A stretch of 64,000 nt of DNA, from assembly GCF_039555335.1 (NCBI RefSeq), contig NC_092628.1, forward strand, positions 57,399,547-57,463,546. Direction: 5' to 3'. Shown here piece after piece: positions 721 to 63,000 of this stretch; the stretch's first letter is position 1; each line of letters opens with the position of its first letter. A program made the position numbers and the translations under genes. The notes under the pieces are model-generated. The model was not told the origin of the DNA. It saw nothing but the letters and a program-made list of their open reading frames with translations, and did no database searches. This stretch comes from Amphiura filiformis. Its lineage: Eukaryota > Echinodermata > Ophiuroidea > Amphilepidida > Amphiuridae.

Positions 721-1483
721 TGCTTGAACAACTTGCATTGCATTTAGTGTTTCTAAATTACAGTTTGTATAAAGAATAATCATCTAAAATACTAGTGAGA
801 ATATAGTTTAACATTTAGTTTGTTTGACATTATATTTGACATTTTTATTGGATTGAAACTTAATCAGGCAGAATAATTACTTCCATGTGTATAGTGATTT
901 TTAAAAATGAAGAATAGTCGTAACTATTGCTCATTTTCTTTGATAGGTTTATTACTTGAGATATATACAAGCCAAATGGAGATCCAACCGAATGGGGAAT
1001 CTTAATATCTATAAAAGATGCAAAAAAGTCTTGTGTGATCAGTTTACATCTAAGCTGTTGAACATTAATGTTTAAAATGTCTCAGTAGGTTCCTCATCTG
1101 GAGACTATTGACACCTTTAAGTCCTAAGTGATTTTTAGACCTATGAAATGAATATGATATGATTACCTGGCAGAGTTGTCAAGGTAGTCACCTTGTATTG
1201 CCATCTTGGTGTATTAAATCCTCCTCTCTTAGGATGAGTACACTTCTTGAATGATCCCATGTGAAATGCATGGCCTATCATGTTTGACTGGTTGGGTTGC
1301 TGTGAACTTATATGATGAGGTGGTGGAAAATTGCTGAGCAGTAAGAAAAATAGAATGATACTGAATGTGAAAAATATATTTGGATGAGGATTGCTCTGCC
1401 AATTCAATGATGATAATGATAATAATAAAATGGTGACAATTTAAAATGGCAACAATGATCATGGTGCAGCTGCAGCTGAATGC

Positions 1484-1545
1484 AGATGATGATGATGATG
1501 AGAAGGAGGAGGAGGAGGACGACGATGAGGAGGAGGAGGAGGTAC
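1484..1545 (+). repeat. GAT/GGA trinucleotide microsatellite
   Basis: A run of GAT triplets passes into GGA/GAC triplets. It is absent from copy 3, where the flanks meet directly near 5395 (GCAGATGAT followed by ATCTCTCCC). The antisense poly-serine ORF here is a product of the repeat. Confidence 0.9.
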
Positions 1546-2690: not shown

Positions 2691-4210
2691 CATTGATACT
2701 GAAATCTGAATCTCTTGTGGTTATATATCTTCCATATATAGCAATTGTTAGCAATCTTCTGTAGATAAGAATTGTTACTTACCATCTGTAGCTAGCAATT
2801 AAAGCTATCTTCAGTAGATAGCAATTATTACATGACATATCATTTTATACACAAAAAACAACTTGGCTTTGCCTTGAAAAGCACATTAGTATAGGGATTT
2901 TTAATCCCTACCAACATATTATGTATTAAGATATGTAATATGTATTTAATGTGTAGTGCATTCGGTCTCAAAGTTAATGATTAAGATTTTGTTTGAAGTA
3001 TACAACATTAATAATAAGCCCAGCTCTTTTATTTTCTCAAGTTATGCTTGAACAACTTGCATTGCATTTAGTGTTTCTAAATTACAGTTTGTAGAAAGAA
3101 TAGTCATCTAAAATACTAGTGAGAATGTAGTCTAACATTTAGTTTGTTTGACATTATATTTGACAGTTTTATTGGATTGAAACTTAATCAGGCAGAATAA
3201 TTACTTTCATGTGTAATGTGATTTTTTAAAGAAGAGCCATAACTATTGCTCATTTTCTTTCATAGATTTATTACTTCAGATATATATTCATGGAAGCCAA
3301 ATGGAGATCCAACCAAATGGGGAATTTTAATGTCTGTAAAAGATGCAAAAAAGTCTTGTGTGATCAGTTTACATCTAAGCTGTTGAACATTAATGTTTAA
3401 AATGTCTCAGTAGGTTCCTCATCTGGAGACTATTGAGACTGTTGACAATGCCTAACTTTGTCTTATTAAACTGTCTCCCTTTGCATGGGCGATAAGGTAA
3501 TTAACTGCAATGATAAAACAACATTTCTCTTGCCTTGCAATGCTGGGCCATTTATGTCACTATCTGAATATGTAATCTTTAGCCTGCTGACTTGTCTCAC
3601 CATAATAAGTAAATCAGGAATTAGTTAACGCACATTCAAAACTATGAACATAATCTATGAACATGTTTTATTATTAATTTCATGACAGTCATCATGCTTA
3701 TTTTAAAATCATTTCTTTTCAATTTCACATTTTAGAATTCAAATAAGGTGATGAAAACTAAAAACAAACAATTTTTTTTCAAAGAAAGGGTTTGAATTTA
3801 TTGACTTAACATTTCCATGACATATTCATGATGCAAATGGGGCAATTTGCAGACATCAGTTCTAGATATCGTAATAGTGTTTGACAATACCATGTCTGGT
3901 TTGCACTTAGGTAAATAGAAAGAATTAATTTAGCATCACACATAACATTGATCAACTGTCAATGTCTATATTCAAACTACTCTACTGAATGCGATTGATC
4001 ATAAGACAACCTTGATGCGTTTCTCTGACTAACCATTTGCATGCTGTTACAGGAGTCTTAATACAAATTACAGTGTGCAATGTGATAAAATACACAAAAT
4101 GTTCAGTGCACATCAGAACATAGAGTGAGTAAGGGTTTACTTGAATCTGGTGGGCTTCATCATCACAGAATATTGCTTGCTTTCTGTATCCAAAACCAAT
4201 ACCCAAAAGT
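2691..4210. repeat. Tandem unit, copy 2 (internally deleted)
   Basis: Same order of landmarks as copy 1, but the stretch corresponding to copy 1 positions ~1116-1923 is missing; the junction lies at about 3433-3446 (CTATTGAGACTGTTGACAAT). It lacks the 421-720 insertion and so provides one of the empty sites. No coding potential is recognised. Confidence 0.85.
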
Positions 4211-6285
4211 AGCATTGATACTGAAATCTGAATCTCTTGTGGTTATATATCTTCCATATATAGCAATTGTTAGCGATCTTCTGTAGATAAAAATTTTCAC
4301 TTACCATCTGTAGCTAGCAATTAAAGCTATCTTCAGTAGATAGCAATTATTACATGACATATCAGTTAGGCACAAACATGCCAGAAAAGCATTTTATACA
4401 GGCCTGGCCTAAAACAACTTGGCTTTGCCTTGGAAAGCACATTAGTGTAGGGATTTTAAAATAAATCCCTACCAACATATTATGTATTAAGATATGTAAT
4501 ATGTATTTAATGTGTAGTGCATTCGGTCTCAAAGTTAATGATTAAGATTTTGTTTGAAGTATACAACATTAATAATAAGCCCAGCTCTTTTATTTTCTCA
4601 AGTTATGCTTGAACAACTTACATTGCATTTAGTGTTTCTAAATTACAGTTTGTAGAAAGAAAAATTACAGTTTGTAGAAAGAATAGTCATCTAAAATACT
4701 AGTGAGAATGTAGTCTAACATTTAGTTTGTTTGACATTATATTTGACATTTTTATTGGATTGAAACTTAATCAGGCAGAATAATTACTTTCATGTGTAAT
4801 GTGATTTTTTAAAGAAGAAGAGCCATAACTATAGCTCATTTTCTTTGATCGATTTATTACTTGAGATATATATTCATGGAAGGCGAATGGAGATCTAACC
4901 AAATGGGGAATCTTAATGTCTGTAAAAGATGCAAAAAAGTCTTGTGTGATCAGTTTACATCTAAGCTGTTGAACATTAATGTTTAAAATGTCTCAGTAGG
5001 TTCCTCATCTGGAGACTATTGACACCGTTGAGTCCCAAGTGATTTTTAGACCTATGAAATGAATATGATATGATTACCTGGCAGAGTTGTCAAGGTAGTC
5101 ACCTTGTATTGCCATCTTGGTGTATTAAATCCTCCTCTCTTAGGATGAGTACACTTCTTGAATGATCCCATGTGAAATGCATGGCCTATCATGTTTGACT
5201 GGTTGGGTTGTTGTGAACTTATACGATGAGGTGGTGGAAAATTGCTGAGCAGTAGGAAAAAAATAGAATGATACTGAATGTGAAAAATATATTTGGATGA
5301 GGATTGCTCTGCCAATTCAATGATGATAATGATAATAATAAAATGGTGACAATTTAAAATGGCAACAATGATCATGGTGCAGCTGAGTGCAGATGATATC
5401 TCTCCCACAGATCCCTAATACCTTCAAATGTGTCATTTAAGACCAATATTCCCAAGGAGACGGCCATGTTTACAAGTCTTATGTCAGACTGCCAATAACG
5501 AATCTTGTCTGTATCAATTCATTCTGTATTTGTATCAACAACACATTCATGATTAGACTAAACCTGTATGCCAATGTTTAGCTTTGTGTGTGCCTGGAAT
5601 TGTCATCGCCCTGCTCATATAGGAAACTTATAGCCCATTTATGTCATGCATGACAATGCCTAACTTTGTCTTATTATTCTGTCTCCCTTTGCATGAGTGA
5701 TAAGGTAATTAACTGCAATGATAAAACAACATTTCTCTTGCCTTGCAATGCTGGCCTATTTATGTCACTATCTGAATGTGTAAGCTTTAGCCTGCTGACT
5801 TGTCTCTCCATGTAAGGAGTAAATCAGGAATTAGTTAATGCACATACAAAGCTATGAACATAATCTATAAAGATGTTTTATCATTAATTTCATGACAGTC
5901 ATCATGATTATTTTAAAATCATTTCTTTTCAATTTCACATTTTAAAATTCAAATAAGGTGATGAAAACTAAAAACAAACAATTTTTTCAAAGAAAGGGTT
6001 TGAATTTATTGACTTAACATTTCCATGACATATTCATGATGCAAATGGGGCAATTTGCAGACATCAGTTCTAGATATTGTAATAGTGTTTGACAATACCA
6101 TGTCTGGTTTGCACTTAGGTAAATAGAAAGAATTAATTTAGCATCACACATAACATTGATCAACTGTCAATGTCTATATTCAAACTACTTCACTGAATGC
6201 GATTGATCATAAGACAACCTTGATGCGTGTCTCTGACTAACCATTTGCATGCTGTTACAGGTGTCGTAACACAAATTACGGTCGA

Positions 6286-21748: not shown

Positions 21749-22408
21749 GGTAGGCCTATTAACTTGAGTTCATATTGCAAATATTGTAAGATGAAAATGT
21801 GCTAAAAAGTTAGAATTTAAGATATTCCTTTACTTCAGAATTATCAGATAAAACTACATTTTTCTTCTTGAATAGTAAACCTGCATCAGGGATTTGAGGA
21901 AAAATGAAGTTGCACCTGAAAATTCCAAGTTGGGAACAAATTCCATTGTGCATGGATCAGGGTGCGCCCTGTGTATTCTGAAGGTCTGGTATTTCAAAAA
22001 GGACTAGAATCCAAACATATATTTTTCTTTCCCCTCCCCATAGGCTCACTGGTCTGAAGCAGTTGAAATCCTGGAATTAAAAACAAAATGAGGCAGCTAT
22101 TTAGCAGGTCTCATTGATCACTTAAGTCTGCTCCAACAGAAAACAATTGTTATTTTGAAAATCCATGCCTTATTGAAATTCAAAATACCAATGTTACTAT
22201 TGTTATTATTATACTATATAGCAAACCTTTTTTGTTTTCAATATCAATAAACAGGACCCTCTGAATAACATACCTTTGGAATACAGGAATGGGTTGTCTT
22301 GATCTGAAAATTAATGCCAACATTCTACGTTGTTGTGCAGGAAAAACCTCCAATTTCCACTGTTATTCATTTGGCAAAACATGGCACTGTACAAAATGTA
22401 AGCTTTAA

Positions 22409-22753
22409 GGGGGTACTACACCCCTGCCCAATTTTGTGCCTATTTTTGCATTTTTCTCAAAAATTATAGATAGAGCATTGGTGACAAGTAAGATATGTAT
22501 ATTATAGGGGCAAGGACTACAACTGCTACACTGGAAATTTTATTTCAGCACAGACAACAGTTGTGGAGTTACAGTCAAAAATGAGGGAAAACCAATATTT
22601 GATCAATAAATCAATAACTACTTGCCTTGAGTTGCTGAATTTTCAGTGCAGTAGTTGTAGTCCTTGCCCCTTATCTTACTTGTCACCAATGCGCTATAAT
22701 TTGGGAGAAAAACACAAAAATAAGCAAAAAATTGGCTAGGGGTGTAGTACCCC
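22409..22753. mobile_element. Foldback MITE, TTAA type, copy A
   Basis: Starts GGGGGTACTACACCCCTG after TTAA and ends GGGGTGTAGTACCCC. Almost the entire 345 bp folds back on itself, for example GCATTGGTGACAAGTAAGAT pairs with the CTTACTTGTCACCAATGC segment. A second full copy is at 55673-56032. Confidence 0.88.
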
Positions 22754-23468
22754 TTGACAAATTTTGCAGTGGACATCAAGCACACTTACCTAATTCAAAT
22801 CTTTGAACAGTTACACAGTTTTTGTGTGTCCCCTGTAAAATTAAAACACCTTCAAATTTGACAATTTGTACTGTTCCCTGTTTTGAAAAATGAGGAACAG
22901 TGAAAATTTACATAATTTTTATGAGGTTTTTCCTGCCTAGAGACGTAATGCAAATTAATATATTTAGGATATTCACAAATATATTATGTAAACTAAGGTA
23001 AAAAAGTGGTGAGATTGTTGCAACCAGTGTGGAGTTTTATACTATTTTTGAAACATATAAATTAAAGTTTACAAAGTTGTCAGTGGTATATTTCAAATTG
23101 TTTTAAATTTGAAAATCCCATAAATTTGCATATTATAAATAACCACAAATTAACCTGCATAATATAACTTTTTATTAATGATTTCCAACTGCAAGCCAAA
23201 GAAGTGAACAAACAATTTTGGCACCCATTTGTGTGACTTCTTTTCAATTCTACACCCTAAGAAAAATACTTGCTAAAAAGAATTATGCTAATTTTCCTGC
23301 TTGCGTTGTATTTGCATCACTTCTTTACACAATTGAAGGGTTGAATATGGTTCCCAACAATTGTCATGTGTTAAATGGGAGGCAAACAAATTTTGTCAAA
23401 AGGGAAGGGAAAACAATGTTTGACGGACATTTTGGAACCTCACAGTGCACATAATTATTACACAACCC

Positions 23469-32785: not shown

Positions 32786-35700
32786 TTAGGAACAGCTTAT
32801 TTCATCAAAAAAATCAGGTGATTTATCCACATTTTTCTCATCAAAGAAATCAGTTGATTCATTCACATTTATCTCATCAAAGAAATCAGGTGATTCATTC
32901 ATATTTTTCTTATCCTCCATTGTCTGTCCTCCTTCAACCTGTAAGTGGAAAGTCTCCACATATGTATATTCCCGAGTTCCACTGGTGTCTTCATCATCAC
33001 AACTACCACCCTTAACACTCATCTCTTTCATGTCCTCCTCATCTGACAAACTTGTCTCTTCCGCATGTTGCTCCCACTCTGCATTCTGGCCCTCTAATTT
33101 TGTTGGTCTGGTTGACCAAAGAATGAGAACTTGGTTATTTTCACACTTAACCCTTTGTTTTTTAACTTTGAATGGTCCACTGGACTCTGGAATGTTGTCT
33201 GCAGTAACCTCTTCTTCTAAGATGCCTTCATCCTGTAAAGCCTTTGTTTGGTCATTTCTCTCTACTTGTAAGGAGTTACTTAATGAATCATGTGCTTCCT
33301 GAATAGCTCCATCTTGTTTCGTTACATGTACCTCTGCTTGTGTAAGATCTGAATCACTTAAACTACCTGCTTCCCATTCATCATCACTATTATCACTTTG
33401 ATATTGGCCTTTCATATTACCCATATCCTCCATCTTTGCATCCTCTGTATCAGCATTTTGCTCTAAATCAAGTTTTCCATCACTTTGGTTGGTTTCTTCA
33501 TCAACCAGTGATTTTGAATCCTGGTTTTGTGATGATATTGCTTCTTGTACACTCAGCTCTGCTGGTTCCAAATCAGAATCATGCAAGTTACCCTCATCCT
33601 GTAAAGCCTTTGTTTGGTCGCTTCTCTCTACTTGTAAAGAGTTACTTACTGATGAACCATGTGCTTCCTGAATAGCTCCATCTTGTTTCGTTACATGTAC
33701 CTCTGCTTGTGTAAGATCTGAATCACTTAAACTACCTGCTTCCCATTCATTATCACTTTGATATTGGCCTTTCATATTACCCATATCCTCCATCTTTGCA
33801 TCTTCTGTATCAGCATTTTGCTCTAAATCAAATTTGCCAACACTTTGGTTGGTTTCTTCATCAATCAGTGATTTTGGATCCTGGTTTTGTGATGATATTG
33901 CATGAGCCACAATAACCTTACTTTTATTAATTGTCTTAGTTTTGACCTTCCTTAAATGTTCACTAACTGCTACATTTTGAGATTTTCTTAATTCAACCTC
34001 TTTACTTTTGATCTTTCTTAACTCAGCTCGTCTTTTTGCATATCTCTGTCTACGTTCATATAACCTAAAATCAGCAATAAACCTATCTTCTTCATCTTTT
34101 ATACTACTATGCTCTGCCTGTTTTCTTAATTCACATAATAGTAGATGATCAACATATGTACGACCAGATAATACCTCCTTGCAGCCACTACACTTTTGTT
34201 GCATTGTATTTTTGTGCATGAATTCATGTTTCTTCAAATCTGATTGATTAGTAAACCTTTCAGGACAGTAAGCACATGTAAATAGTTTTGCATAAAGATG
34301 TTTATTTGTGTGACGTTGGAATAGAGCATAACTGAGTGTTCTATAATTGCACTGGTCGCACTTGTGAGCCTTTGTTCCTTGGTGCGTTTTAAGGTGCCCT
34401 CGCATACTTCTTTGAAACAGATATCTTCCACAAACTTTGCACTGGTGTTTATCTCGGTTTCTTGGTTTTGGGTTTGGGTTTGGTTTTCGTTTTTTCACAG
34501 GAAATTTATAGCCTATGTGAGTCTGTTCACAGTGTTTCTTATGCTGTTTATGACTTGCAAATGACAAATGACATACTTTACATATATATTTTTGTCCTGT
34601 TTCACAACTTCCCATTTTGTTTGCTTTGATTACATGGATTCTAAAACAAGGATAGTCAACAAAATGCCGTTTGCAAACATGGCAAACAAGATCATCAATA
34701 TTTGAAGTCTCTTCTGATAACTGTTGATGTCCAAATTTATCACAGTGCTTCCTAAATCCAGTCAGACACTGAAACCGGATGTTACACACACTGCACCTAT
34801 ACTTCACCAACTCTGCATGCAGTAATTTATGGGGGGTCATACATGTATAATATTTGAAGGTCTTATCACACATAGGACACTTATATGGCTCCAGTATATC
34901 ATGAACATATTTGAGATGGCCATAAAGCTCATAATTTGCATCAAAAGTGGCAGAACAAATGTTACAGTTTCTTCTAATATTTTTCTTCAATCTGTCTCCA
35001 ATGTTGTGCACTTTATCCAGATGAACTTTGTAATTAGAGGACCATTTCATAGTGTTGCCACAAATATAACATGTGATCCTCTTGCCTTCGTGTTCAACTG
35101 CAATATGCTCTTCCAAATGTACAGGACGTACATAGGCTCTCTGACATATACGGCATTTGTAAACTAGAGGTTTTCCTTTCTTACGTTTCTTGGGTGTTTT
35201 TTTCTTTGGTGCATTCTGTTTGTCCTTCCTGTTTGGTGAAGACTTGTTCTGGTGTTGGTTTTTTCTAGCTTTTGTAGGAGACTTGTTCTCTTTGCTTTCT
35301 GCTACTTGTATACTGACAATGTCACCTGCAAAAGATAAGATTAGTAATGAGAGTTATGATCATTGGGATTTCCAGATTCTTGATCAAGTTTAAGACGGTA
35401 GCACAGGCATTTAGCTAGAAATTTACAAGTCATGTGAATGACATATATATAGCATGACAACATTTTTATCTTGATGACTTGAACCTAATTTCTACATCCC
35501 ACTGGGAGTTCATTAGGCTCAATTTAAATCAATTTGACCAAGTTCTGAGTGCACAGAACTTTCTCATCAGTTAATGCTATTTTTTGTTACAATTTCACAT
35601 CCATCTTTCAAATTTTCCTGCTTGGTGGCACACCAGAATAGGTAGATGACAGATGGATGCATAGCTCTCTAGGATACTAATGTATCATTATTTAGAGAAT

Positions 35701-36960
35701 AAAAGTATTGTTTTGAGACCCTGATGTGTATCTATCACCTGATAGAACACAGGTTCTATGGAAAACTAATGGTATCTTGCATGTTCTATCATTCAACCTG
35801 GGTGATGACAGTCTACTACAGTGCCTACTTATATCTATTTGCAAGTAGGTAGATAGTTTGGTCATCTTATAATTGGTGAAACATTGTTTACTGATATAGA
35901 ATGGCATAACCCACCTTAGCTAATGGCTGGTCTATTCTATAGCTACTGGATGATCTATTCTTGGCATGCTACATGTATTTCTTACCATTCTGTAATCCTG
36001 CCTAGCTACTGGGTGATCTATTCTTGGCATTCTACATGTATTTCTTATCATCCTGTAATCCTGCCTAGCTACTGGGTGATATTCTTGGCATGCTACATGA
36101 ATATCTTACCATCCTGTAATCCCACCTAGCTACTGGGTGATATTCTTGGCATGCTACATGAATATCTTACCATCCTGTAATCCCACCTAGCTACTGGGTG
36201 ATCTATTCTTGGCATTCTACATGTATATCTTACCATCCTGTAATCCCACCTAGCTACTGGGTGATCTATTCTTGGCATGCTACATGTATATCTTACCATC
36301 CTGTAATCCCACCTAGCTACTGGGTGATCTATTCTTGGCATTCTACATGTATATCTTACCATCCTGTAATCCCGCCTAGCTACTGGGGGATCTATTCTTG
36401 GCATTCTACATGTATATCTTACCATCCTGTAATCCCGCCTAGCTACTGGGGGATCTATTCTTGGCATGTTACATGTATTTCTTACCATCCTGTAACCCTG
36501 CCTAGCTACTGGGTGATCTATTCTTGGCATGCTACATGTATTTCTTACCATCCTGTAACCCACCTTAGCCACTGGGTGATCTATTCTTGGCATGCTACAT
36601 GAATATCATACCATCCTGTAATCCCGCCTAGCTACTGGGTATCTATTCTTGGCATGCTACATGAATATCTTACCATCCTGTAATCCACCTTAGCTACTGG
36701 GTGATCTATTCTTGGCATGCTACATGAATATCTTACCATCCTGTAATCCACCTTAGCTACTGGGTGATCTATTCTTGGCATGCTACATGAATATCTTACC
36801 CTCCTGTAACCCACCTTAGCTACTGGGTGATCTATTCTTGGCATGCTACATGTATATATTTCTTACCTTCCTTGACAGCTCTCTCCTCATCAGCAATCAA
36901 CTTTGCAATAGCAAGTAACTGCTCGATATTATCAGAACTATCTTTGCCCTTCGCATCCAT
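32786..36960 (-). CDS. Multi-C2H2 zinc-finger protein with acidic repeat tail
   Basis: Two coding exons on the minus strand: 36960-36867 and 35325-32786, joined in phase (GAAG|GTGAC) to a complete 877-residue protein. Exon 1 encodes a short helical start (DSSDNIEQLLAIAKLIADEE). Exon 2 begins with a basic NLS-like stretch (PKKKTPKKRKKGK, residues 71-83). About nine canonical C2H2 fingers and two degenerate ones follow (residues ~89-430), with long irregular linkers, not the TGEKP linkers of vertebrate arrays. The rest is acidic and low-complexity. It contains a ~120-residue tandem duplication (unit start AISSQNQD) and a closing triple repeat around ESPDFFDE. A nuclear DNA-binding role is inferred from the fingers only; I recognise no named orthologue. 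An AG at about 36979 (TATATTCTTAACAG) just before the start codon suggests an upstream 5' UTR exon. Antisense ORFs across the locus are shadows. Confidence 0.88.
35940..36865. repeat. 63-bp minisatellite in the zinc-finger gene intron
   Basis: About 15 units of roughly 63 bp (core GCTACTGGGTGATCTATTC, TTGGCATGCTACATG, ACCATCCTGTAATCC), with 61- and 62-bp variants. It ends at the donor of exon 1. Because 63 is divisible by three and the unit lacks stops in some frames, long repetitive ORFs appear on both strands; these are not genes. Confidence 0.95.
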
Positions 36961-43530: not shown

Positions 43531-43954
43531 AATTAAAGGGGCATTTCGTGATCCACAGCCTCATCCCCCCACTTTTCTCAAAAAAAGTTGAGATTTTTAT
43601 ATCACTGGAAACCTCTGGCTACATGTTTATGTACAAAATATTTCTTGCAGATTAATTCGTTTAGCAAAGATATCGTGAAATTTGAATTTCGTTCTGGTGC
43701 ACCAGAACGAAATTACAATGCATTGTCTATGGAGCAGTGTACTGTAATACACATAATCATGCATAACTCGCGAACGCAAAATCGGAATCAACTGAAATTT
43801 TGGGAATAGGTTTTTTTCGTGGATATCTAACGAAAAATGACACTAGACAGAAATAGAGGATGCTAGGATCACGAAATACTCCTTTAAGTTCAGTAATTTA
43901 ATTTAATTGAAGAATTTTCTCTCGCCCCAATACACTGCTTAGCACGTGCAGATA

Positions 43955-47053: not shown

Positions 47054-47896
47054 CATACTGCAGTTACTGTCCGTTTTCCTATACACAATACACAGTGCTC
47101 TCACCATTGACGCGTGACCTCTACAAATGATGTATGTTGGAAGAATGGGCACTTGCCTAGTTAACATCACTGTGTGAAAAATAACCAGCCAATATTTAAC
47201 TTATTCTCCAAACTTCTAGCAAATATATTTCTCTAATATGACCTAAAATTACAGCTAGGTTAGATGTTCAGAAATAGTCGCACTTTTGTAAAATATGAGT
47301 GAGGGCAAGGCATAGCTAGCCAACTCCCCGTGTTAACTGAATGGAGATTTGACCGAAAATATTGGTATCGGACCGCTCACTTCTGAAGGATGCCAAAAAA
47401 AAACGGTACAAGCTACATTTAAACTATTCTCTGGCAATCATCATGATGAGTTTCTTATATGGTATGCCGAAATTGGGTACTGTAGGTGATTGACAAAGGG
47501 TCGCACTTTTGTGTTTTAGGAAGGATATGTAAACGACAGATAACACCAAAAATATAAAGAAATTATTTCCAAACCGTGTTAAGTCAACAATCATTATGTT
47601 GCTCATTTTCAAGAATGCTGGTTAACAAAAAGCAGGCCATTGTCTCATTTCGTGAACAAAAGTCTACATACCATTGTTTCCTTGCGTTTCCTTTATAATC
47701 GGTTACCCAACTGAAGCTGTATTATAGCAGCTCATTGCTATATCGCACATATAAAACAGACACATGTGCACAGCCAGAGAAGAAGTTAATCAGTTGAGCT
47801 GTTTCAATGAGTGTTATCTTGGTTTAATAGCTTTTAATGGGGTTTAAGTCCTGGAAAGGTCGAGGTGAATTCTACTGTAGACATGACTGCATCATG
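47054..47896 (+). repeat. Segmental duplication, copy 1 (5' flank of CD38-like gene)
   Basis: About 843 bp from CATACTGCAGTTACTGTCCG to GACTGCATCATG, repeated in direct orientation at 53650-54522 inside intron 2 of the same gene. The middle (about 47424-47500) is replaced by unrelated sequence in the other copy. It ends about 145 bp before the start codon, so it probably contains promoter and 5' UTR. Confidence 0.9.
47750..47756 (+). promoter_or_regulatory. Candidate TATA box of the CD38-like gene
   Basis: TATAAAA in CACATATAAAACAGACAC, 290 bp before the start codon; transcription would begin near 47780. The 5' UTR may be continuous or spliced to the AG at 48017-48018 (TTTTATTTTAACAG). The motif and its flanks are conserved in the intronic duplicate. 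Confidence 0.45.
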
Positions 47897-48039
47897 AAAG
47901 GAAAAGTGGCAAAATATAGAGCAACTGATTGTTCTAATCTCAACTATTTAGCCAAGATATACGGTAGGCTAATAACCGTTTATTATGATGTCGACCTGTC
48001 TTGTTTTTATTTTAACAGCAGCATCTTGGTTCTGACAAT

Positions 48040-51000
48040 ATGGATAGCAAATCTAACACTTTGCACACCGTTGCTCATCTCTGTATCCTATCATTTATGA
48101 TCGTCCTTTTGACATCTCTTGAAGCAAACGCACACATATGGCAAAGACAGGCGGATGCTGGTAAAGGAACAACAAGAAATATATCTGAAATATTCCAAGG
48201 AAGATGCCATGAGCTTATACAGTGTTTGCAAACGGACCCTGAATGCAACATCACAAGGTTTATTATTTGTTTTCTTCCTCGTCTTCCAAATTGTCTTCAT
48301 GTTTTCCTCCTTCATGTTCTTTCTTTTTCCTCTTTATATGTCTTCTCCTGTTTCTTCATCTTCTTGTTACCCTTTGCACAATTAAAGAACGTTTTGCAGA
48401 GCTGAAAAAAGGAAATATTTAACAAGAAGCGTCTTTCACAAAGACACAGTTCACGGATCAGGTAATAGTAATTTGTTCTAACTTTCCATTTTCATATCTA
48501 ACCTACTCTGCACTGATTTTACAATAAATTAGTGATTTGAGGCATAATGATACCTACATCCTGACTCTGGCTTATATAACTCTCCATCCAGCAAGAAACT
48601 CATTGAAATACAAACTTTCAAATCAATATCATAGGCCTATTAAAATTCAATTAGTATACCATGCCGATAATAACCATGGCCCAATAGTTATTAGGGATTC
48701 AATTAAGATAAGCAAACATTACTGGGTAGATAACAGGAACTGAATTTTGTCAGTTGGAGTAATTGAGTAAATCGCCTGTATCAAAATGCTCAGTGTATTT
48801 TTCATATATGCAGTAATATGCTCAGCCTTATCACAAAATAAACAATAGCATTGACCTTAGCCACCAATCAGTAAAGACTATTATAATCATGTGATGGCTC
48901 AATCCAATAGTAAACATGCTTAGAAAAAAGGCAAAAAAAATTGTCCTGGCTGCCAATTGTCTCAATACAAGATAAGATGTTCTAAAAAGTCCTTGTCATG
49001 TGGGGCAGGATTAGATAAAGGGATACAAACCAGGGTATGAGACATTAGGTATTATTTCCTAGCCTCTTAACCACAGGGTTGATGGGCAACAATAGCTATT
49101 CAAGACACAGTGTATGTTCAACTGTGCATATGAGATACCGTAAAACCCCGTCTACAAGGATATACCTAAGAAACGCCCTCAATAAAATTGGTTGCTTTTT
49201 GTATTTGGAGTTTGAGCAAATATATACTGGCACTGGGTGGCTATGCATTCCATCTAAGTATGTTGTAACACCAATCAATTGTATTGACATAATAACGACT
49301 GTTTCGTATATCAGGATCGTATAGCTCAATTGATAGAGCGTCAGACTTTGGAACTGAAGAGAGCATGGTCCGGGCACCGGTTCAGTTTTTTCATTCTCGT
49401 TTAATTTTTACTTTTTGACTTTTTTTTTTTATCTTTCTTCAAATCTACCTTTCTACTTTTAATTTTAGGTGTTTTTTTTGGGTTTTTTTTTAGTTTTTTT
49501 TTATAGTTTTTTTTTATAGTTTTTTTTAGTAATTTTGTGGTTTTATAGAAACTAGTAAAAGCATTTATTCTAAATAATAGCGAAACCAACGGTTAGACAG
49601 ATGTGTTGTAACTACTTGTCTGTCCTCGTCTTTGCAATAAAAACCTATGTTGCACCTTTGTGCCATCCCCATTCTTGAGGAATGATAGGTAGGGTGCGTT
49701 TTTGGCTTAAGCACGATTTTGTTTCTACTTGTGTGTATAAGTGTGTCATCAAAAAGACCGGCCACCACCGTGGCCGCGTCTCTTTTTAGACTAGCTTTCT
49801 TGCGGCCAGAACGGTCGACAATGGCAACTGCGTTCTCATCGTGGGGGTTGTACCTTCCCCTACGACTAGCCCGCTGTTGCCATAATGACGCATTCCGATC
49901 GCAAGAAGCCCGCACAAGAACACTTTCATCGTGCTGGAAAATATATGAAGCAAAACTAATCTAAGCATTTTAATGTTGTATACAAGAACCTGTTCCAACT
50001 TACTGCAGGGGTGTTCAATTTAGTTAATACTCTTGGTCCTTTTACGAACTTAATATATGCATCTTCTACCCCTCGCCAGAATGAAAGACTTGTGATGAAA
50101 TCATAATAAATATTGTTCTGTTGCCACAATTGCAGTTTTTTCAATAAAAAAATAGATGAGGAATAATAATTATTCCATATTTGAATCTATTGTCCCATCA
50201 AGAATAGAGTGTCTTCAAAAACTTCAATCAATTAATCTGACAAAGGAAACTATTCTGGTCATTCAATTTTGTTTCGCTTGCACCTGTTATATCACAGGCG
50301 TTGGTAGAGAAGGCACACTTCTCTTGTCTTCACCGAAGTAGTGATGTAAACACTTAAATGATTAATTACCATAGCTAGCAATGGACATACACTATTTTTT
50401 GTTCCACTTGAACCCATACTCATAGAGCGTGTTTATAGTGAGACAATCTATCCGTTATTTAGCTGGACTGCCACGCAGTCTATATTTGTTTATGTTTTAC
50501 TAACCATTGCAAATCTAGACTACGCGGTAGTTTAGCCAAATAACGGAAAGATTGTCTCACTATAAACACGCTCATAGCTATTCGCTGTCGATGTGACGTA
50601 ATTAATCGGATTAACTACCATAGCAATTGAACCATAATTGTCAAAGAAATGCTAATCACTCGCCATGTAAGATTAGTATTTATGAAAAGAGTGGTATTCA
50701 ATCTATGTTTGGTGACATACGCGGGTGATTAGTGCAATCTGCTTGATGGTAGTTATTGCGATTATTACGTCACTTCGACAGCGAATTGTAGTATAGACGA
50801 ATCCAACAAGCCAAGTGAAGTTACGTAATTAATCGGATTAATTACCATAGCAATAGGTGAAAACAATTTTGAACATATCGCGCTGCGCTACAAGCAGGTT
50901 ACACTCATCACCTGTACTGTGTATGTCTGCAATCATAGATTGAATACAATACTGGTCTTTTCAAAGATACTAATCTTACAGGTGCAGCATGATATGGTTC

Positions 51001-54000
51001 AATGAAGAGGTACCGCCTGAACGTATCAGTGTATAACGCGGTATATTCAAAAATTATTTTCACCTATTGCTATGGTAATCCGATTATTACGTAACTTCGC
51101 CAGCGTATTGGAATAAATCTACACCACATTTCGCCATAATACATTCTAGAAACGCTTGCTGTTAGAATAAGAAAAATTTTAATGCTAATTTATTGCACAT
51201 TCTAGGGAAGCGTGGTTACCTTTTAAAATAACCGAGTGAGAGGGTTTTCAAGAAAATATCTTTCCTGTCAAAACTGAAGCATCCTCTGTATAAAAGAAAA
51301 TATGAATATTAACTGCACATCATATATAACGATTCGTGATACCCAATTGTGGCACATTTGATGTCGTTTAAGAAGCAGAGAATTTTATTTCAATTTTATA
51401 TACGCCAAAATATTTTTTAATTGAGCAAGAATAAGGATAGAAAAACGTTGAAAATCCTATGTGAATATTACATTAGACCCGGCAAAAGATTACTGTTTCG
51501 TTTTTATGGTAATCTAATCTTTTATTTCCTGAAAAAAACATTTGGGGTCTAAAATGGATTTTTTATGTAATTGATAAAAACATCGAACGTGTATACAAGA
51601 AAATGGTAGGTTTCCTCTATAGTATTTTACTGACCATGGAAATGTACTGAGACACAAGCACGTGTCAAAATCGATATAATGTATTGTCCATACAGACGCC
51701 CAGTTATCATGTTTATTATTGGATTTTTTTTGTATAAAACATGCAGTTAACAATAATTGAGCGCTTTATAGTACACATAAATGTTTTTAGGCAAATAAAA
51801 TTCCAAAATATGGTACGTTTTCTGCCTTTGCTTGTCACGTGATAGGCCTATGTTGAAGTTGCGATTATATCTTAAAATAAGTTTCAAATGAATTCCAAGA
51901 AGACAAGTGGCCGAGTGGTCTAAGGCGCTGGGTTCATAGTGTGTCCAAAGCAGTCCGCCGCCGTGAGTTCGAACCCCGCCTCCGCCAAACTTTAATGAAT
52001 TAAAATTAAAATTTTACTTTAAAAAAATTTCATATTGGGGAAATGTGACTGGCAGAATTTATGTATGGCGTGGAGTGGTGTGGAATAAATCAGGAGGATG
52101 TGAGTTCATAAGGGCAATGTCGGGGATTATAGGTCACAATCGATGTGGAGAGATGAGAGGTCCGACCAACAGCCATTATAGCGAATGGTTCATGTTCAAC
52201 TAATTCCTGCGGACGGTCTGTGGCTAGTAAGGAATCGTCTTTGACCACATGCGCAGATCTGTCTCGTCAGGAAGATATTTAATATCCCGAATTTATAATA
52301 GGCCTATGCCTACCAGTTCCATCGTATAACCGATCTGCTAGAGAATATTTGTTACCATGTTTAATAAATTCGTATTTATCGTATAATAAAATGTAGCCAA
52401 ATGTATATTATGTGTCACACGGTTTTCTGCTGAACCACTAGCAGGCTATGTTACCCCATCTATGACAATGACAAAGGTGAATTTTGATGATTTTTACGAT
52501 CGTCCGGATGAGCAAATCACTGAATGGGTCTTTAGTTCCCTCCTCTCCTTATCCTGCCAATATTATATGAATCAAAGAAAATAAAGAACAAATAAAATTA
52601 AACAAGAAAAAAAGACAAAGAAAAGAAACAATAAAAGAAAAACAATAGAATAAATTAAACTAAATATGAAAAAAAAATGATCACGAAAGGAGTCTTTAGA
52701 AAATGCAAGAAAATATAAATGAAAAGTTTGAACAATATTTTGTTCATAAAAGTTTGTGTGACCGTGATGAGGCTCGAACTCATCATCTTCCGATCTAAAG
52801 AACCAAAGTCTTATGCCTTGCCAAGTGAGCTATGCTCGTGAGATGCGAAATAAAGATAGAATAATACATTGTATACCTGCTTGTGTCGGTAAATGATTTG
52901 CTCAAATTCCATAATGATATAATATTGTGGAGGGCGCTAGCGTGAAATATGCTATCATCACAGTCGCTACTATTCCTTGTAGACGGGTTTCTACGGTATG
53001 GGTTCAAGTGGGGGAAATTTTCACTCCGTGAACAAAAAATATCTTTGTAAAATTAATTTTAATCATTAGGCCCAGCATTAATGGAAGTAAAAACTCGCAT
53101 CAATCTTGTTTATTAAATATTTTCTAGAATCTAGATAGCATTATGAGAACTTGAAATAATATTTTGCCAAAACTCTCTTGTTTTGTATACAGACCAACGG
53201 TTGTAAATTGCACAGCAATATGGAATGAATTTCTGATGGCGTTTCAGTATAAGCCTCCATGTAATGTTCCTGCTGATGCCTACGATCAGTTCATTAGGAT
53301 GGCTTTACCGATAACACAAGCTGACCGGGTATGTAAAGGCCCACTGAGGTAGGCTGCGTTCTGGTATAGGGGATAGCAAATTTTGCCATAAAATTTGTAT
53401 TATATCGCGAATTAAAACAAAACACACGCACAAAAATCAAAATTATTTGATATGAGAAGGACATTCATCGTATTCAGAATGCAATTTTGTGTGTTTGATG
53501 GGCTCTCAGGTCCCACAAAAATACTGTGCAAAGGTAGGTGACCGAACACAAATTTAACGATGTTTTGGCTTAAACGAACGAATCGACACATTTTTTGCTC
53601 AGTCATAAACATATTTATGTAGCTAGATTTTTCCGGTGGTATAAGAATTCATACTGCAGTTACTGTCCGTTTTCCTATACACAATAAACAGTGCTCTCAC
53701 CATTGACGCGCGACCTTTACAAATAGTGTATGTTAGAAGTATATTGCATTTGCCTAGTTAACATCACTGTGTGAAAACTAACCGGCCAATATTTAAACTA
53801 CTAGTATTCTCCAAACTTCTAGCAAATATATTTCTCTAACATGACCTAAAATTACAGCTAGGTTAGATGTTCAGAAATAGTCGCACTTTCGTAGAATATG
53901 AGTGAGGGCAAGGCATAGCTAGCTCATAGCTAGCCAACTCCCCGTGTTAATTGAATGGAGATTTGACCGAAAATATTGAGCTATATTGGTAACGGACCGC

Positions 54001-57000
54001 TCCGTTCTGAAGGATGCAACAAAAAAAACGGTACAAGCTACATTTAAACTATTCTATGAAATTCTAGAAAATAGAGTTTTGTAACATGTCCTAAATTTTT
54101 AGCTAATTTAGGTGTTTGGAAATAGTCGCACTTTTGTGTTTTAGGAAGGATATGTAAACGACAGATAACACCAAAAATATGAAGAAATTATTTCCAAACC
54201 GTGTTAAGTCAACAATCATTATGTTGCTCATTTTCAAGAATGCTGGTTAACAAAAAGCAGGCCATTGTCTCATTTCGTGAACAAAGGTCCACATACCATT
54301 GTTTCCTTGCGTTTCCTTTATAATCAGTTACCCAACTGAAGCTGTATTATAGCACCTCATAGATACCGCACATATAAAACAGACACATGTGCACAACCAG
54401 AGAAGATCCGATTTAATCAGTTGAGCTGTTTCAATGAGTGTTATCTTGGTTTAATAGCTTTTTTTGTGGTTAAGTCCTGCAAAGGTCGAGATGAATTCTA
54501 CTGTAGACATGACTGCATCATGTTCAACCTTTTTTTGTGAGAAAAGTGGAACACGAGGCTATGAATCAAGAAAGAAGGAAACAATGGTCTTCATTTTGAA
54601 ATATGTTTTGTTTTCTACAGACACTTTTCTGGTCAGGCCTGCGTGACGCTGCTTTAAATGTCGCACGAGTTTCCAGGTACTACAAGTAAGTTACATTTAA
54701 CATTTCAAATATCAAAACCATGAAAATTGCCGTACAAATAATCAGAGCTTAAATAATGAATCACCTAAGGGGTCATTTTGATATTCACTGAGACTAGTAT
54801 CAGGACATAGACTACCCCATAGCTAAAACCAGTTCTTCATCACAAATAATACCCACACACCACTGCATTGTACAGATATACAGTATGCCAAAGAATTAAG
54901 GTACCAGTTGTGTTCACCCCTGTATATCCTAAATAAAGACAACCGAAGCAGCCAATACCTGTACTCTTTAGCTCTGATTTAAGACTTTATTTGTTGAAAT
55001 TGGTTGAGAATTAAAGAAACGGTGATCTAAAACCTAATGAAGAAACAAAATGAAAGTTGCACTTTTGTGTTCTAATCAATGAGCATGACGCTAGTTTTAA
55101 TGTGCTAATCAATATAAACACGGCGATATACGCGCTAGTTCTCTTGTTCCCGAATGCTTTGTGTACAATAGGGCATGCAATGGAGCAAACTGCAACTTTT
55201 TAATTGGCATCTTCTTTGGGTTTTTGGATCATTGTGTCTTTATTTCTTGAAAAATTTCAACGAACGAAGTCTTAAATTCGAGCTAAAAGATGCAGCTATT
55301 GCCTATTGGTTCTAATTGTGACATTTCTGTCTTTGTTTAGGCGGATATACAGGGGTGAACATAACTGGTACCTTAATTCTTTGGCTTACTGCAGTCAAAC
55401 TGGGTTATCGTATAACCGTAACCCATAGGCCTACCCTTACCCTAACCAACAATATAGTGATAGTGCTTCTGTCTACATACCTACCCGCTTTATTGACCGC
55501 GAACATTGACCGCTCTCGTCCACTAAGACTGTTTGAATTTATTAATGCAAATATTCCTTCCAAATCATTGTTAAACTATGTACGCGAGCTTGCGCGAGAC
55601 GTTGGTGTCAATATTATTGATAGAACCATCCCATTGGTGCCATTGTTAACTCAAATGTGATAGCACATTTAAGGGGTACTACACCCCTGTGGTAAATTTG
55701 TGAGTATTTTTGCATTTTTTCTCGAAAAATAATAACACACTGGTGACAAAAGTTATGTATATTATTGGGGCAAGGAATCCAATTACTACACTGAAATGTC
55801 AGTGATTCAAGACAAGCGGTTCAGTAAATATGATATGAAATGAGGTACATACTAGCGGTACCTCATTTTTTATCATAAGTATCGAACCACTTGTCTTGGG
55901 TCACTGAAATTCCAGTGTAGTAATTGGATTCCTTGCCCCTATAATATACATAACTTTTGTTATCAGTGTGTTATTAGTTTTTGAGAAAAATGCAAAAATA
56001 GTCACAAATTTATCGAGGGGTGTAGTACCCCCTTAACGCAGTCAAAAGCCTCTTCAAATATCGCCGCGCTTCCTGAGAGTTGCCTTGATTGGTCAGGGCA
56101 ATCTGGATAAGACGCTTACACAAACGGCAAGGCAGTGTGACGGACGTGATAATGTACAGATATAATTATAAAACTCGTCTGACCCAGGATTGGTCAAAGA
56201 GAACTTCCGTGAAATCTATGGGAAGTGAAAGGGAAAATATCTATACTGATTCGGAGGGTTTGGGGTTGATTAATAATGATATAGTCTATATTACCAGTCG
56301 TTATCCACGGACCCGAGGGAGGGTAGGCTATATCCTACCCATGTATCCAGTACCTGAGATCCAGTATAATACATTCAAAGAACACAATAAAATACGCTCT
56401 CATCACTAGCTCATGTTGGCATACCAGTGTAACGATACAGTTCTTTTAGAGATACCAAGTATAATTTGCAAATTGACGTTAACAACGTGAAATGCTACTG
56501 ATAATTTTAAATTAAGGGTAATTGAGGAATCTCTACCAGGCTATATAGCCAATAATCTAACCTGGTGTGGGAACCCAGACAGTGTCGACGGGATGAATTA
56601 CGAAGAGTGTCCGTCATGGGGTTCATGCGTGAATATGTCATCTGCTGTGCAGAGATTCTGGCCATCCGCATCAAAAGAGGTAACTTTACATAAATATTTC
56701 AAGTTTGCTTGACAAAACCAAGTGAATTTTTACTCACTACAATATGTCGTCCTTCATCAGGTATGACTGATATGGTCATCTGATCCACTTTCCCGGGAAA
56801 CTAATTTCCGGTACTTCTTCATCTCTATTCCAGTCTTTGAAAGAGGATCGTAGACGTGACTTAAGGAAATATGCCACCTCTTTTCTGTTCACGGTCTTGC
56901 TACCTCTTCTCCTTATTTCGAATGCTTCACACACTTCTCTCATACAATATTTATACAAGACTTTAACACCACAGAATGTATATTCCTGTATTAAAGCCAT

Positions 57001-60000
57001 ATTGTAAAATTTGATGAGGAGGACGCCCCAATATTGGTCAAAATTCTGTTTTTTACACGATTGTTATGTACTTTATTAAACTAACAACCCTGTAAAAATG
57101 CAGACGATGTAGTGTAGTTTTGTCAAAATCCGAGAATTTGAATAAAGTGCAGGAACTGTCGTTTAATTATTACGATAGAGATATTAGTCGAACGTACGGG
57201 ATGTTCATATCACGGTACGTACATGTTGTGCGAGACAGTCATACACACATCAAAGGATAGCAAACGTACCGTAGCACGACCGACGCAGTGCCACGGATTG
57301 GCGACATCTGCGCTGGTAGTAAATTCCAATTTTCTTTGCTTTACCTCAGTTGTTCGACTCAAAATTAAAAGGGGACATATCTGACAGTAACAGTTAACAT
57401 TTTATGGAAAAGAAATACCAGTCTATTTTTATGGAAATGTTACAATTTGGCTTTAACGGCCAGAGCTCGTATCAGTGAAATACATCACTTTTTATTCTGA
57501 TCTATCTAGAATCAAGGATTATTAACAATTGCTCATTAGACCATTAGGTCTGATTAGTGTAGATTGATATTTTTTCACACGAGGACACGAATACGAACAC
57601 ACAGTTAAATACGGCGCCATGGTGCAAGGTCACGTGAGGTGTTAAATGTTTTTGTGACTTCAAATACTCACGTGTATTGCGTATTTTATACCTGCGTTCC
57701 CTTCGTATTATTGACAGCAAGTCCTAATTTTGACATTACTTTGGCAAAAAGACATTCCTTTATCAAATCAAATTAGAAGACTTTCAAATCACTCGTGCCT
57801 GATTGGGATCATAGTATAGTAGTTGACCCACTGCCGTCAGTCGTGACCGTGCTAGAGGGCGTTTGTACTTTCTTCAACAGGTTCTATGTGGTGACAGGAA
57901 TAATAGACAAAGGGATAGGCATCCTAGACTGCTGCCCTCTCCCCGGGTGCCCTCTGTTGAAATATGTATCCTAGGTCTAGACAATAGGCGGATTAGCGGC
58001 CATTTTGTCTTCGACGTGATTTTATTCACGTGTCCTTATACTTTAGTACACAAATATACAAGTTAACAGGTTTACAATATTAAAATTATATTTTGAATCA
58101 ATTCTGTAGTAAATCGATCAAATGACGGTGATTGTTCAGGTATTATATGCTTGATAAAATTAAACTGTCTGACCAGCTAGTATTCTCCTCCGCCGTCAGT
58201 GTGATTCCAGACATTCCAGGGGGCGCAGCACTAATTCAGCGTCCCATAGGATAACGTGTGAATTCGGCCTACTTCAAGCGCTATTTCTGGCGTCCCTGCA
58301 ATACTTGGCAAAATAAATTTGGTATCAAATTAAAGCTCTGTTTCTCTAGATTCCAAAACTTTTGTCGGCATAATCGATGACCATTGACTTTTTTCGCTAT
58401 TTTTCGGTGCAAAAAAATATAGCTAAAAATATACTAAACTCACCACTCACATTTCAAAATCGGGTTTTCTCTTAATCCGCCACAGAGAATTGCTTTTGAG
58501 ATCAATTGTCCAGTTTTTTTTCTGCATGTTATCATTAAAGACACTTGTCGAATTCATATGAGCCAATATTAAGTGATTTAAAGTGAACATGTCGGTAGAT
58601 ATGGTCGCTACAATCTCATATTCACTATGGACTATATTAGCCGAATTTCGTTGTTACATAAAATGCGGAGTGATTTAGTGTTGCGCCCTCTCCACGTATC
58701 GTGTTGCGAAGGTGGAGGAGACTAAAGCTGTATTAACGAACACGCATGCGTTAAAAATGATGTAGCCTAGGTCGAACAATAGCGTGACGTAGTTTCCGGC
58801 ATTGTTCCTATGCACTTTCATCCTCCTGGTGGTAACCTCAATCACATGAGCCGCGTAAGAGTTGATGTGAATTATTCATAACCGATCGAGACCTTGCCTC
58901 ACTTTCTTGAGAGCAAGCCAACAAAATTCGTCATAGGTTTGCGTTGCTAATACAAAAACCGTGAATTTAGTGTCAGCCCCCCTGCATACTCACAGTTTAT
59001 GTAACAACATATTAGGACTATAAATAAGATTTGTAATAAGATCATATAAATGACTGTACTGTAGACTGCTGAATAAAATTTGTTCTTTCATTTTGACAGT
59101 TTGCAAGGCAAGCAACAGGAAAAGTATATGTAGCATTAGATGCACATAGAGATACGCCTTTCAAGAACGATAGGTAAAGATAAAACGCTAAAGTAACTGT
59201 TTTCCTAAGTACTTTCTTTATTTTAGCGTATAATTTCTGATCTTTGTGCGAGCATGTGGGGCTCTCGTTTATTAGTCCTATGGTATTTTCGTACAACACA
59301 TCCCGCCATTTTGAGTCTTTTTTCATTTGAAGATTTGATTTCTTTTTTTGCCAAAGTCGCAGACAACTTTGCCTACGAATCCATTTTGAGAGTACTGGTA
59401 TAGACGTCCGGTGGTTTGCATTCCCGGAGCTCCCGGGGTTTGCATTAGTTGTGGCCATCAACGTACATAGAGTATCTAGGACTTGACCACAATGAAGTTG
59501 TTGAATTTCACGTAGAAATGGTAGAACACTTACATTTCTTGTAAGCTCTTGTAATTACCGTTGCGTTTAATGTAGTGTTTAATACTGTAGTCGTTTCCAC
59601 ATGCCAATTCTTCGTGCAATATTTTCGCTCCACAGATAATATGTTATGTAGGTTTGCAAAAACGGTATTACCAGTGTAATGTAACCCATAAGCATGGCAC
59701 ATTATTATTCAATTCAGCGTGTTCGCTACCATTGAACTACCAAACTTAAACCCAGAGAAAGTTACCATGGTAGAGATCTTGTTGGTACCAGATATTACGT
59801 CACCAGACGTTGGGTAAGTGTGTTTAGATAATCTAAGAATCATCGGATGAATTTGGGAACCACTTTTTGGCTAGCCAAAAGGTACTTTTGCCACAAAATA
59901 TATTGGGCCGTACATCGTTTATTACGCACTCGTATAGTAGTAGTAGTAGCTCGAAATATATGACAAAACGTAAATTTCTTACTACATGTATACCCTGCCA

Positions 60001-63000
60001 TCGAAATCACATGCACTATCATGGACCATTCAGGTAAGAATAAGAGTTCACACATTTTCCCCCAAATAGTGAAGGGTCTGGGTTTAGGAGGGTGAACAAG
60101 TTTATTTTAGGAAAGTAAAATTGGGGATCCGTCGGGGATATGCTTGTTGCATATCTCACGGGCTTTCTTGATACAACACGCCTTATAAACCCACTCACCA
60201 TATTGACTCACTCATAACTTATTATACATGCTTGCTTGCTTGCTTTATTTACTCAATTGTCTTGCTTGATAGCCTCTTGATTGGTAGGCCCACTTACTCA
60301 CCCACCACTTTTTCCCGATTTTTTTTATTTAATACAGCGAAAAGTGTGGAGAGGGATCTATGAAAGAGTTACAAAGGCGTCTCGACAAAGCTGGGTTGAA
60401 ATGGACTTGTAATTACGACCCCCTGTGAGTATTCAAATATTAACGCGAGCAATTTCGCCACGTTCGCGTTATATGGACCAAAATATGCTATGCATGCATT
60501 TCTTTGTGTGCTATGCATGCATTTCTATGCTGTCAAGGTTACTGGGCTTTCTTGCCCTGCGGGGCCCTTTTATATTGGAACTCACTTGGAGTGAGGGCTC
60601 CGCAGGGCAAGAAAGCCCATTGACCTTGACACCATAGAATATATATTCTTCTTTTTAAAACTTTTACCCCATAATTTCCCTTATTCTCTATCGGGTAACT
60701 ATTTGTAGTTTAAGCTTCTTGGGTGTATACATATTTCGCGATTAGTGGTTATTTGTTGCCCTGCGGGGCAATCTAGTTGGATATCCAAATTTAGCGGTTA
60801 GTGGGGCTTTTGTTAAATTTCTTTTGTTAAATATTGTTTTGGAAACACTTCAACTATTCATATCTTTGGAATTAAATGTTCATATGTTTTTCGCATAATG
60901 TAAATAGCTTTGCAAATATTTTACAATCATGTAAAAAACTGAAAATTGAATATCCACGACTTCAGACTGAATTTGCTTGATCATACCACATATATCGATC
61001 GATGCATTTACAGAAAAGGTTTAAATGTTGGGTTATATAAATAAAATTAATAACATTAATAAAACATTTTGAAACCGTGATGCAAACATTCTAACAGAAT
61101 GTTATTGACTTTGACAATATTTATTTCAGTGAATTTCGGTTCATCCAATGTACGACACTAGACAACCCTCTGGATTACAATGCATGTAAAGGTGACAATA
61201 AAAGCAAAAACACGATGTCATCACGAGGCTGATGATGATGATGATGATGATGACAATGCTGATGTTAATGACGATGACGGCGACTACGTTATGAAAATGA
61301 TGATGATGAATTATGTTTTAATGTTTAAATTTGCTTGACCAGATTAATAACCTTATCCCCTCACTTTACCCCATCAAAATGCATGCAGAGTTTGGTGAAA
61401 GCTCATATTTCCTTACAACACCAGTGCATGTTTCGTTCTAGCGGTATGAACAAAAATATGACCGGTAGTTCATTGGTGCCGAAAGTCGTGTATTGTTGTA
61501 TGGACCACTATTATAGTAGAATAACCGAAAATGATTTTTGCTTCAAGAATCAAAATCTCTAAAGCAATTTATATTAATTCAAAACTTGAAATAAGAATAA
61601 ATATATTTTTTTCGTTTTTACTATCATTTTTTTTCTCTCTTTTAAAGACACACGACAGAGATGTAAGCCACGAAAAAACTCTTATGAAATGCTGAAATAA
61701 GAATATTTGGGTAATCGCCCATATCAAAAAATGAGACCTTTCCGGATAACTTCCCGATAGTCACCGGGTAGACACCGGCAAATTTCACATGCAAATTAGA
61801 TAGGTAGCGGGTGACTACCCGATAAATTTTTGGGAAACCATAGTGGATACCTTTCAGGTAATAGGTACCGGATGACTACCCGATGACCTTTTTGGGAAAC
61901 TAGCGGGTAACTACCCGGTGACTTTTTGGGGAACTAGCGGATAACTACCCGATAACTTTTCGGGGACCTAGCGGATAACTTTTGGTGACAATATACCTGG
62001 TGACCTCTTTGGAGACTTCCTATTGACCTTTTGGGGAATGCAGAAATACAAATTCATGAGTATGCACAAATTTATTAGACAGTAGTAAGCTTATTATTTG
62101 AATTGTAGTTTTTAATTAATGTACAACCAAATTGTTATGATAATAATAGGTAATAATTTTGCAAATCATTTGAAACGTATCGGACATTGAAAATGATTAT
62201 TTCATCTGTCAATTTTCTTCCCACAGGTGACGCACAATATACTGAAGAAATCATTATAATTGGAGCAGCAATGGGAGCAGTGATTCTCATTTTAATGATC
62301 GTAGTAGCAATATTCATTGTACAATCCTGCAAAGGGTAAGGCCTAAAAATAATTGTTTGATTGGCTTAACCCGACCTACCCTAAAATTGCAAAAAAAGAA
62401 TTGATTAATTAAAAAAAAAAAAAATAAATAAATAAACAAAAAAAGAAGAAAAAGTTCCAAAGCCTTTATCAACCCTGAAATGTTTTTAATGTTACGCCAA
62501 TCAAACAATTTTTCAAGGCCTAATTATACATTATACAAGCAATTCTTCCTGTTTAATTTTTTTATACAGGGTGGCTCAGAATAACCTATACCGTATTTGA
62601 AACAAAAATTAAAAATATAAAGTCAACAGTGTATCTACTTTTAATACATTTGGCGGGACTTTGATATTATTGAAAATGGACGAAAACCCATCATCTAACC
62701 GTCCAATTGGATGAAAATTGTTTTTAAAGAATGGGCTAAAAGTACAAAAAGGCCTTAAAAGTTGAAAAGCATGACAGCCAGCATCTCACAGAAGGATAAG
62801 ACTTCTCATGGAAGCAGTTACCTCCCCCGGCTACTGCTACGACGCTGTTTTTATTCCATTAAGGGATTGGGTATGAACGTTTGGACAGTATTTATTGCAA
62901 TATCGAATTGTATTCTGAATACGAAGAATGTCCTTCTGATATCAAATAATTTTGATTTTTTGAAATTCGCAATGTAATACACATTTTATGGCAAATGATT

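Follow-up and report, generated by a model that had tools for sequence, protein, structure and literature searches.

The CD38-type gene and its product

The window, by which we mean the whole 64,000-nucleotide stretch of Amphiura filiformis DNA analysed here, contains a CD38-like gene whose ten coding exons lie between positions 48040 and 63265, read through in a single open frame, with all nine introns bounded by GT and AG, and encode a product of 344 residues. The coding exons are as follows.

48040..48257, + strand, coding exon 1, read from the sequence
53193..53328, + strand, coding exon 2, read from the sequence
54621..54685, + strand, coding exon 3, which begins at residue 119
56517..56679, + strand, coding exon 4, read from the sequence
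59100..59173, + strand, coding exon 5, read from the sequence
59718..59813, + strand, coding exon 6, which carries Glu225
60338..60424, + strand, coding exon 7, read from the sequence
61130..61185, + strand, coding exon 8, read from the sequence
62227..62335, + strand, coding exon 9, with the C-terminal hydrophobic helix
63235..63265, + strand, coding exon 10, which includes the stop codon

An earlier note on this DNA had recognized a CD38-like gene here, and the gene is real and intact: its product matches PF02267 over essentially its full length (239.5 bits against a gathering cut-off of 25, E=4.4e-71, profile positions 1-235 of 241), and the best solved chain for it is 3f6y, ADP-ribosyl cyclase 1 (CD38), with E=9.2e-40. 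Residues W122, E143, W188 and E225 align with the CD38 chain 3f6y, and we take these to be the catalytic tryptophan and glutamate positions of the family. The ten family cysteines are found at matching positions (56, 79, 96, 157, 171, 177, 254, 275, 287 and 299), and the five conserved disulfide pairs of the family, as given in the available text of PMC7764337, thus all appear to be represented in the product, judged by cysteine position; the sixth, CD38-only pair (Cys119-Cys201) is absent. The strongest hydrophobic stretch lies at the C terminus, at about residues 307-330, and by eye the N terminus could plausibly carry a signal sequence. Scored with consensus weights, the exon 1 donor (-3.9) and the exon 4 acceptor (-4.7) are weak, and these two borders are less sure than the others, though the protein alignment spans them.

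In its full PF02267 domain, conserved Trp and Glu residues, ten cysteines and hydrophobic C terminus the product resembles the known CD38/ADP-ribosyl cyclases, including SpARC1-3 of the sea urchin, a cloned and expanded cyclase family in which the ten Aplysia cysteines are conserved, according to the portion of PMC1949048 at hand. The same text locates SpARC1 to the ER lumen, gives it a predicted signal peptide and counts it among several cloned isoforms; it holds no pointer to an internal promoter, and the words 'intron' and 'exon' are absent from it (PMC1949048).

The introns of the gene contain other repeat-like sequences. Two places in intron 1 (51900-51990 and 52760-52845) look tRNA-like by eye and are perhaps SINE heads; ARAGORN calls none there. 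A 511-base segment in intron 3 (54881-55391) has 49-base inverted arms that are 96% complementary, with TA on its left side only, by eye, and is perhaps a mariner-type MITE. Also in intron 3, at 55716-55990, is a fold-back with 133-base arms that are 88% complementary, and a relative of about 71% identity is found at 22402-22755.

Two copies of one segment

A segment of about 0.85 kb is present in two copies at this intact CD38-type gene, one upstream of it and the other in its second intron. The copies, the related units within copy 2 and the ends are listed here, together with a relative of the sequence that surrounds copy 2.

47054..47896, + strand, copy 1, upstream of the CD38-like gene, aligned to copy 2 in one piece
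53650..54522, + strand, copy 2 of the repeat, in intron 2 of the CD38-like gene, an insertion according to the paralogous empty site
53805..53892, + strand, internal unit A, 88 bases, 78% identical to unit B
54050..54137, + strand, internal unit B, 88 bases, whose copy 1 counterpart is largely replaced (47431-47494)
47054..47071, + strand, left end of copy 1, pairing imperfectly with the inverted right end (score 9, anchored at the ends, over 18/17 bases)
47880..47896, + strand, right end of copy 1, the same 17 bases as at 54506-54522
53650..53667, + strand, left end of copy 2, with the same bases as 47054-47071
54506..54522, + strand, right end of copy 2, with the same bases as 47880-47896
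43544..43684, - strand, paralogous empty site, a relative of the joined copy 2 flanks that lacks the 0.87-kb segment

The duplication had been reported in the earlier note, and blastn recovers it with base-exact agreement in coordinates and in orientation: 47054-47896 and 53650-54522 form a single direct alignment in which 778 of 880 columns are identical (88.4%) and 44 are gaps. Much of the difference lies in one place, 47431-47494 of copy 1, which is a replaced stretch relative to copy 2; in a global alignment 55 of 835 ungapped columns are mismatched with this stretch included, and 36 of 776 (95.4% identity) without it. Copy 2 keeps an internal unit at this place, and the 88-base unit is thus present twice in copy 2, in diverged form. 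As the second internal unit survives in copy 2 but is largely replaced in copy 1, the former is not simply derived from the latter as it now stands.

Within the 64-kb window neither the segment nor the pair of its ends was found a third time; the right end alone has one match with three mismatches, at 37159, where shuffles average 0.31. A second CD38-like gene in the window was considered as the source of copy 2, and a tblastn search with exons 1-4 had, outside the gene, no hit better than E=0.79. Intron 2 is largely made up of sequence that recurs elsewhere in the window (1024 of its 1292 bases, 873 of which are copy 2 itself); the same test applied window-wide finds 15437 of 64000 bases to recur.

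Other repeats were noted in passing. Adjoining copy 2 in intron 2, at 53382-53532, is another repeat with relatives near 27.4, 27.8, 62.9 and 63.1 kb. Large direct duplications of about 0.4-1.6 kb and 84-98% identity occupy 64-6282, and a 63-base minisatellite of 14.7 copies, with open frames on both strands, lies at 35940-36857. An 855-codon open frame on the minus strand (32786-35353) has C2H2 zinc-finger matches, and a tandem repeat of period 360 is found at 33228-33901.

Flanks, ends and origin of the segment

The flanks of copy 2 bear directly on how it came to lie in intron 2. Taken separately, they give two weak minus-strand matches near 43.6 kb, one for either side of copy 2 (E=6e-4 and 0.008), and when they are joined (53549-53649 with 54523-54573) they match 43684-43544 through the junction, with 70.5% identity over 156 columns (blastn, E=1.7e-11). 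The score of the joined match is reached by none of 300 shuffles, and neither the left flank alone (score 88) nor the right flank alone (score 53) is equalled in any of 1000 randomized controls; in a scan of 626 overlapping tiles, the place at 43.6 kb ranks first for each flank. From this match through the junction to 43544-43684 on the minus strand, it follows that intron 2 contained an older repeat, into which copy 2 was inserted.

The surroundings of copy 1 are different. Its joined flanks show no similarity to those of copy 2 (175 of 300 shuffles are as good) or to the repeat at 43.6 kb (260 of 300), and a search of the window for an empty site of copy 1 gave none at E values of 1 or less. 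A larger shared unit around both copies was rejected because of these unrelated flanks. Since the copies also share base-exact ends, the observation is of one exact segment in two unrelated contexts.

The ends themselves, CATACTGCAGTTACTGTC and, on the other strand, CATGATGCAGTCATGTC, align from their first base as a short, imperfect inverted repeat over 18/17 bases, with a score that 11 of 20000 randomly placed pairs also reach. This rarity favors a mobile element with inverted ends over a segment with arbitrary breakpoints. Together with the exact shared ends, the unrelated flanks, the empty site and the diverged internal units, it leads us to a reading of the segment as a non-autonomous, transposon-like repeat. 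Our preferred interpretation, to which we give a probability of roughly 60%, takes the 0.85-kb segment to belong to a dispersed repeat that is transposon-like and non-coding and has inverted ends that match imperfectly. One copy would have settled upstream of the intact CD38/ADP-ribosyl cyclase gene, and the other would have entered the older repeat inside intron 2, from which it would be spliced out together with the intron, most likely taking no part in producing an alternative enzyme. The insertion of copy 2 fits ordinary repeat mobility, and as genome anatomy the duplication is ordinary. With two copies found in 64 kb, mobility as a dispersed family is something that we infer rather than demonstrate.

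Other observations count against a transposon-like repeat. Under random insertion the presence of two copies at one gene is a coincidence, and the target-site matches are within the range of chance: the best for copy 1 is 7/8 with one boundary shifted by two bases (reached in 132 of 2000 pairs of random boundaries), and for copy 2 it is 4/4, again with one boundary shifted by two bases (438 of 2000). Because these matches are at chance level and the count of copies is that of a 64-kb window, a one-off segmental duplication has to be weighed, in which a single event, such as templated break repair, placed a copy of the gene's upstream region in intron 2, and the segment is neither mobile nor functional. 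Such an event would account for both copies lying at one gene in the same orientation, for the lack of a further copy in the window and of a sound target-site duplication; the empty site fits it equally, as it proves the insertion of copy 2 only and by itself agrees with transposition and templated duplication alike. A one-off duplication does not predict end inverted repeats better than those of arbitrary breakpoints (the 11 in 20000 noted above), nor is it expected that copy 2, rather than copy 1, should retain the second internal unit, and we regard it as somewhat unlikely.

Among known elements, the segment is most readily compared with MITE-like non-autonomous inverted-repeat transposons, which it resembles in being short and non-coding, in its sharp shared ends with short imperfect inverted repeats, in having copies in an intron and upstream of a gene, and in the paralogous empty site for copy 2. 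It is unlike them in that there is no convincing target-site duplication, the superfamily is unassigned, and the copies within the 64-kb window number two. Helentron-associated elements (HINE/DINE-1) share with it the lack of coding sequence, the internal repeats, the position of copy 2 between T and T, and the absence of a clear target-site duplication, but in the accessible text of PMC4067079 their inverted repeats are subterminal, whereas here they are terminal. A HINE was rejected because copy 1, read in the same orientation, has A on either side and breaks the T/T insertion rule.

An LTR retrotransposon, with the two copies as its repeats, was likewise rejected. The direct repeats of LTR elements begin with TG, end with CA and enclose a retroviral interior; the ends here are CA...TG, and what lies between the copies includes the first two exons of the host gene.

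No coding part, transposase or named family was found for the segment, and Rfam (at the gathering threshold) and ARAGORN gave no matches in the whole window. The collections searched for outside copies comprise viruses, prokaryotes and plasmids and have little bearing on an animal repeat: exact-pattern scans of viral contigs gave no match in one case and in the other a single stretch, as an 18-21-base match only, those of genome contigs gave none, and a plasmid search with copy 2 gave none. A literature search at the level of titles and abstract beginnings found no report of this duplication among the papers listed, which does not prove that there is none.

Promoter-like sequence and its possible products

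Features that bear on transcription and translation are the following.

47750..47756, + strand, TATAAAA motif of copy 1, with its counterpart at 54373-54379 in copy 2
47865..47866, + strand, possible donor GT (TCGAG/GTGAAT), the best in copy 1; copy 2 reads GATGAAT, with no GT
48019..48039, + strand, probable 5' untranslated part of coding exon 1, behind a good acceptor (score 4.6)
54491..54646, + strand, 51-codon open reading frame, out of frame with exon 3, overrunning the ATG at 54603

The earlier note had called the segment the promoter region of the gene, with the same TATA motif in an 18-bp identical context in both copies. The motif is present, and the shared context is longer than claimed, with 29 identical bases at 47744-47772. 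The label of promoter is harder to sustain, as the window has 43 TATAAAA motifs on its two strands together, and this one is conserved to no greater degree than the repeat around it: the 61 columns around the TATA contain three mismatches (4.9%) as compared with 36 of 776 (4.6%) for the whole repeat, and thus there is no concentration of conservation at this place. Identical runs longer than that of the TATA, of 104, 56, 50 and 49 bases, are found elsewhere in the repeat. A promoter interpretation of the segment seems, on these grounds, weakly supported. We note as a caution that a repeat flanking a first coding exon mimics a duplicated promoter until an empty site is found.

Where transcription of the gene begins is a related question. 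An acceptor lies immediately before 48019, 21 bases ahead of the start codon, and scores well by consensus weights; its score is matched or exceeded by 41 of the window's 3304 AGs and is above that of seven of the nine acceptors that the gene itself uses. This good acceptor indicates an untranslated first exon, and the first coding exon (48040-48257) is therefore probably not the first exon of the transcript, which corrects the earlier note. Possible upstream donors are found at 46688 (6.5), 46167 (5.3), 46455 (4.6), 47865 (4.0) and 47964 (4.0), and with several to choose from the transcript may start within copy 1 or further upstream.

The donor at 47865 allows an arrangement in which a mobile repeat supplied the gene with its promoter and untranslated first exon (TATA at 47750, donor at 47865, acceptor before 48019); the second copy in intron 2 would then be a related start region in which the donor has changed and whose transcript has another fate. 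We consider this decidedly improbable. Were both copies live promoters of one mobile origin, the locus would be a compact natural experiment in which repeats supply start sites to a calcium-messenger enzyme. It is also conceivable that copy 2 is regulatory, or transcribed without coding, as the start of an intronic untranslated RNA or as an enhancer. The retention of promoter-like sequence at 95.4% identity is compatible with such a role, but the region of the TATA is conserved no better than the rest, and we rate this as very improbable indeed.

The earlier note had proposed that copy 2 acts as an alternative internal promoter, from which a transcript would give a cyclase without the signal peptide and the first 118 residues. 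Precedents for the first part of this proposal exist in zebrafish, where, in the available text of PMC9341505, intronic DNA transposons act as tissue-specific promoters and one TE-derived start is said to give a potential N-terminal truncation. The likeness is that of an intronic repeat with a promoter-like motif ahead of an internal exon; the difference is that promoter use in zebrafish rests on RNA-seq and nanoCAGE (PMC9341505), and is here a proposal from sequence.

Several details of the proposal agree with the DNA. The TATA context is kept in copy 2, and the ATG at 54603 is, as claimed, in frame with exon 3 if the acceptor before 54621 is unused. The catalytic Trp and Glu residues listed above would also be retained, as they all lie downstream of the beginning of exon 3. 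Donors between copy 2 and exon 3 are poor: the highest score, 0.6, belongs to one at 53902, on the upstream side of the TATA, and the best of those listed downstream of the TATA has -1.1; with donors this weak a transcript from copy 2 would probably keep the ATG at 54603, and the earlier ATGs too.

It is these earlier ATGs that argue against a truncated cyclase. The ATG at 54603 is the seventh counted from 54395 on, and three of the six ahead of it (54491, 54509 and 54584) share the out-of-frame open reading frame, whose stop at 54644 lies past 54603. By eye there is one further ATG between each TATA and the point where counting starts, at 54387 in copy 2 and at 47764 in copy 1. Truncation would in addition remove Cys56, Cys79 and Cys96 and so break two of the family's five conserved disulfides, following the pairs given in the same part of PMC7764337. 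The C-terminal hydrophobic helix would be retained in the truncated form, a point on which the earlier note needs correction. Because of the upstream ATGs and the two broken disulfides, a truncated, non-secreted cyclase is unlikely, and that copy 2 would yield one in working form appears, from the reading frames and cysteine positions, unlikely as well; the internal promoter with this product seems to us rather improbable.

Neither the ATGs nor the donors are decisive when taken singly. Copy 1 presents the same difficulty: in an unspliced transcript from it, six ATGs (counted from 47770 on) would precede the start codon at 48040, two of them opening reading frames that overlap 48040, so that upstream ATGs alone cannot exclude use; similarly, the gene itself uses a donor that scores -3.9, and a weak score thus cannot exclude a donor. 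Given the zebrafish precedents, copy 2 may serve as the start of some transcript.
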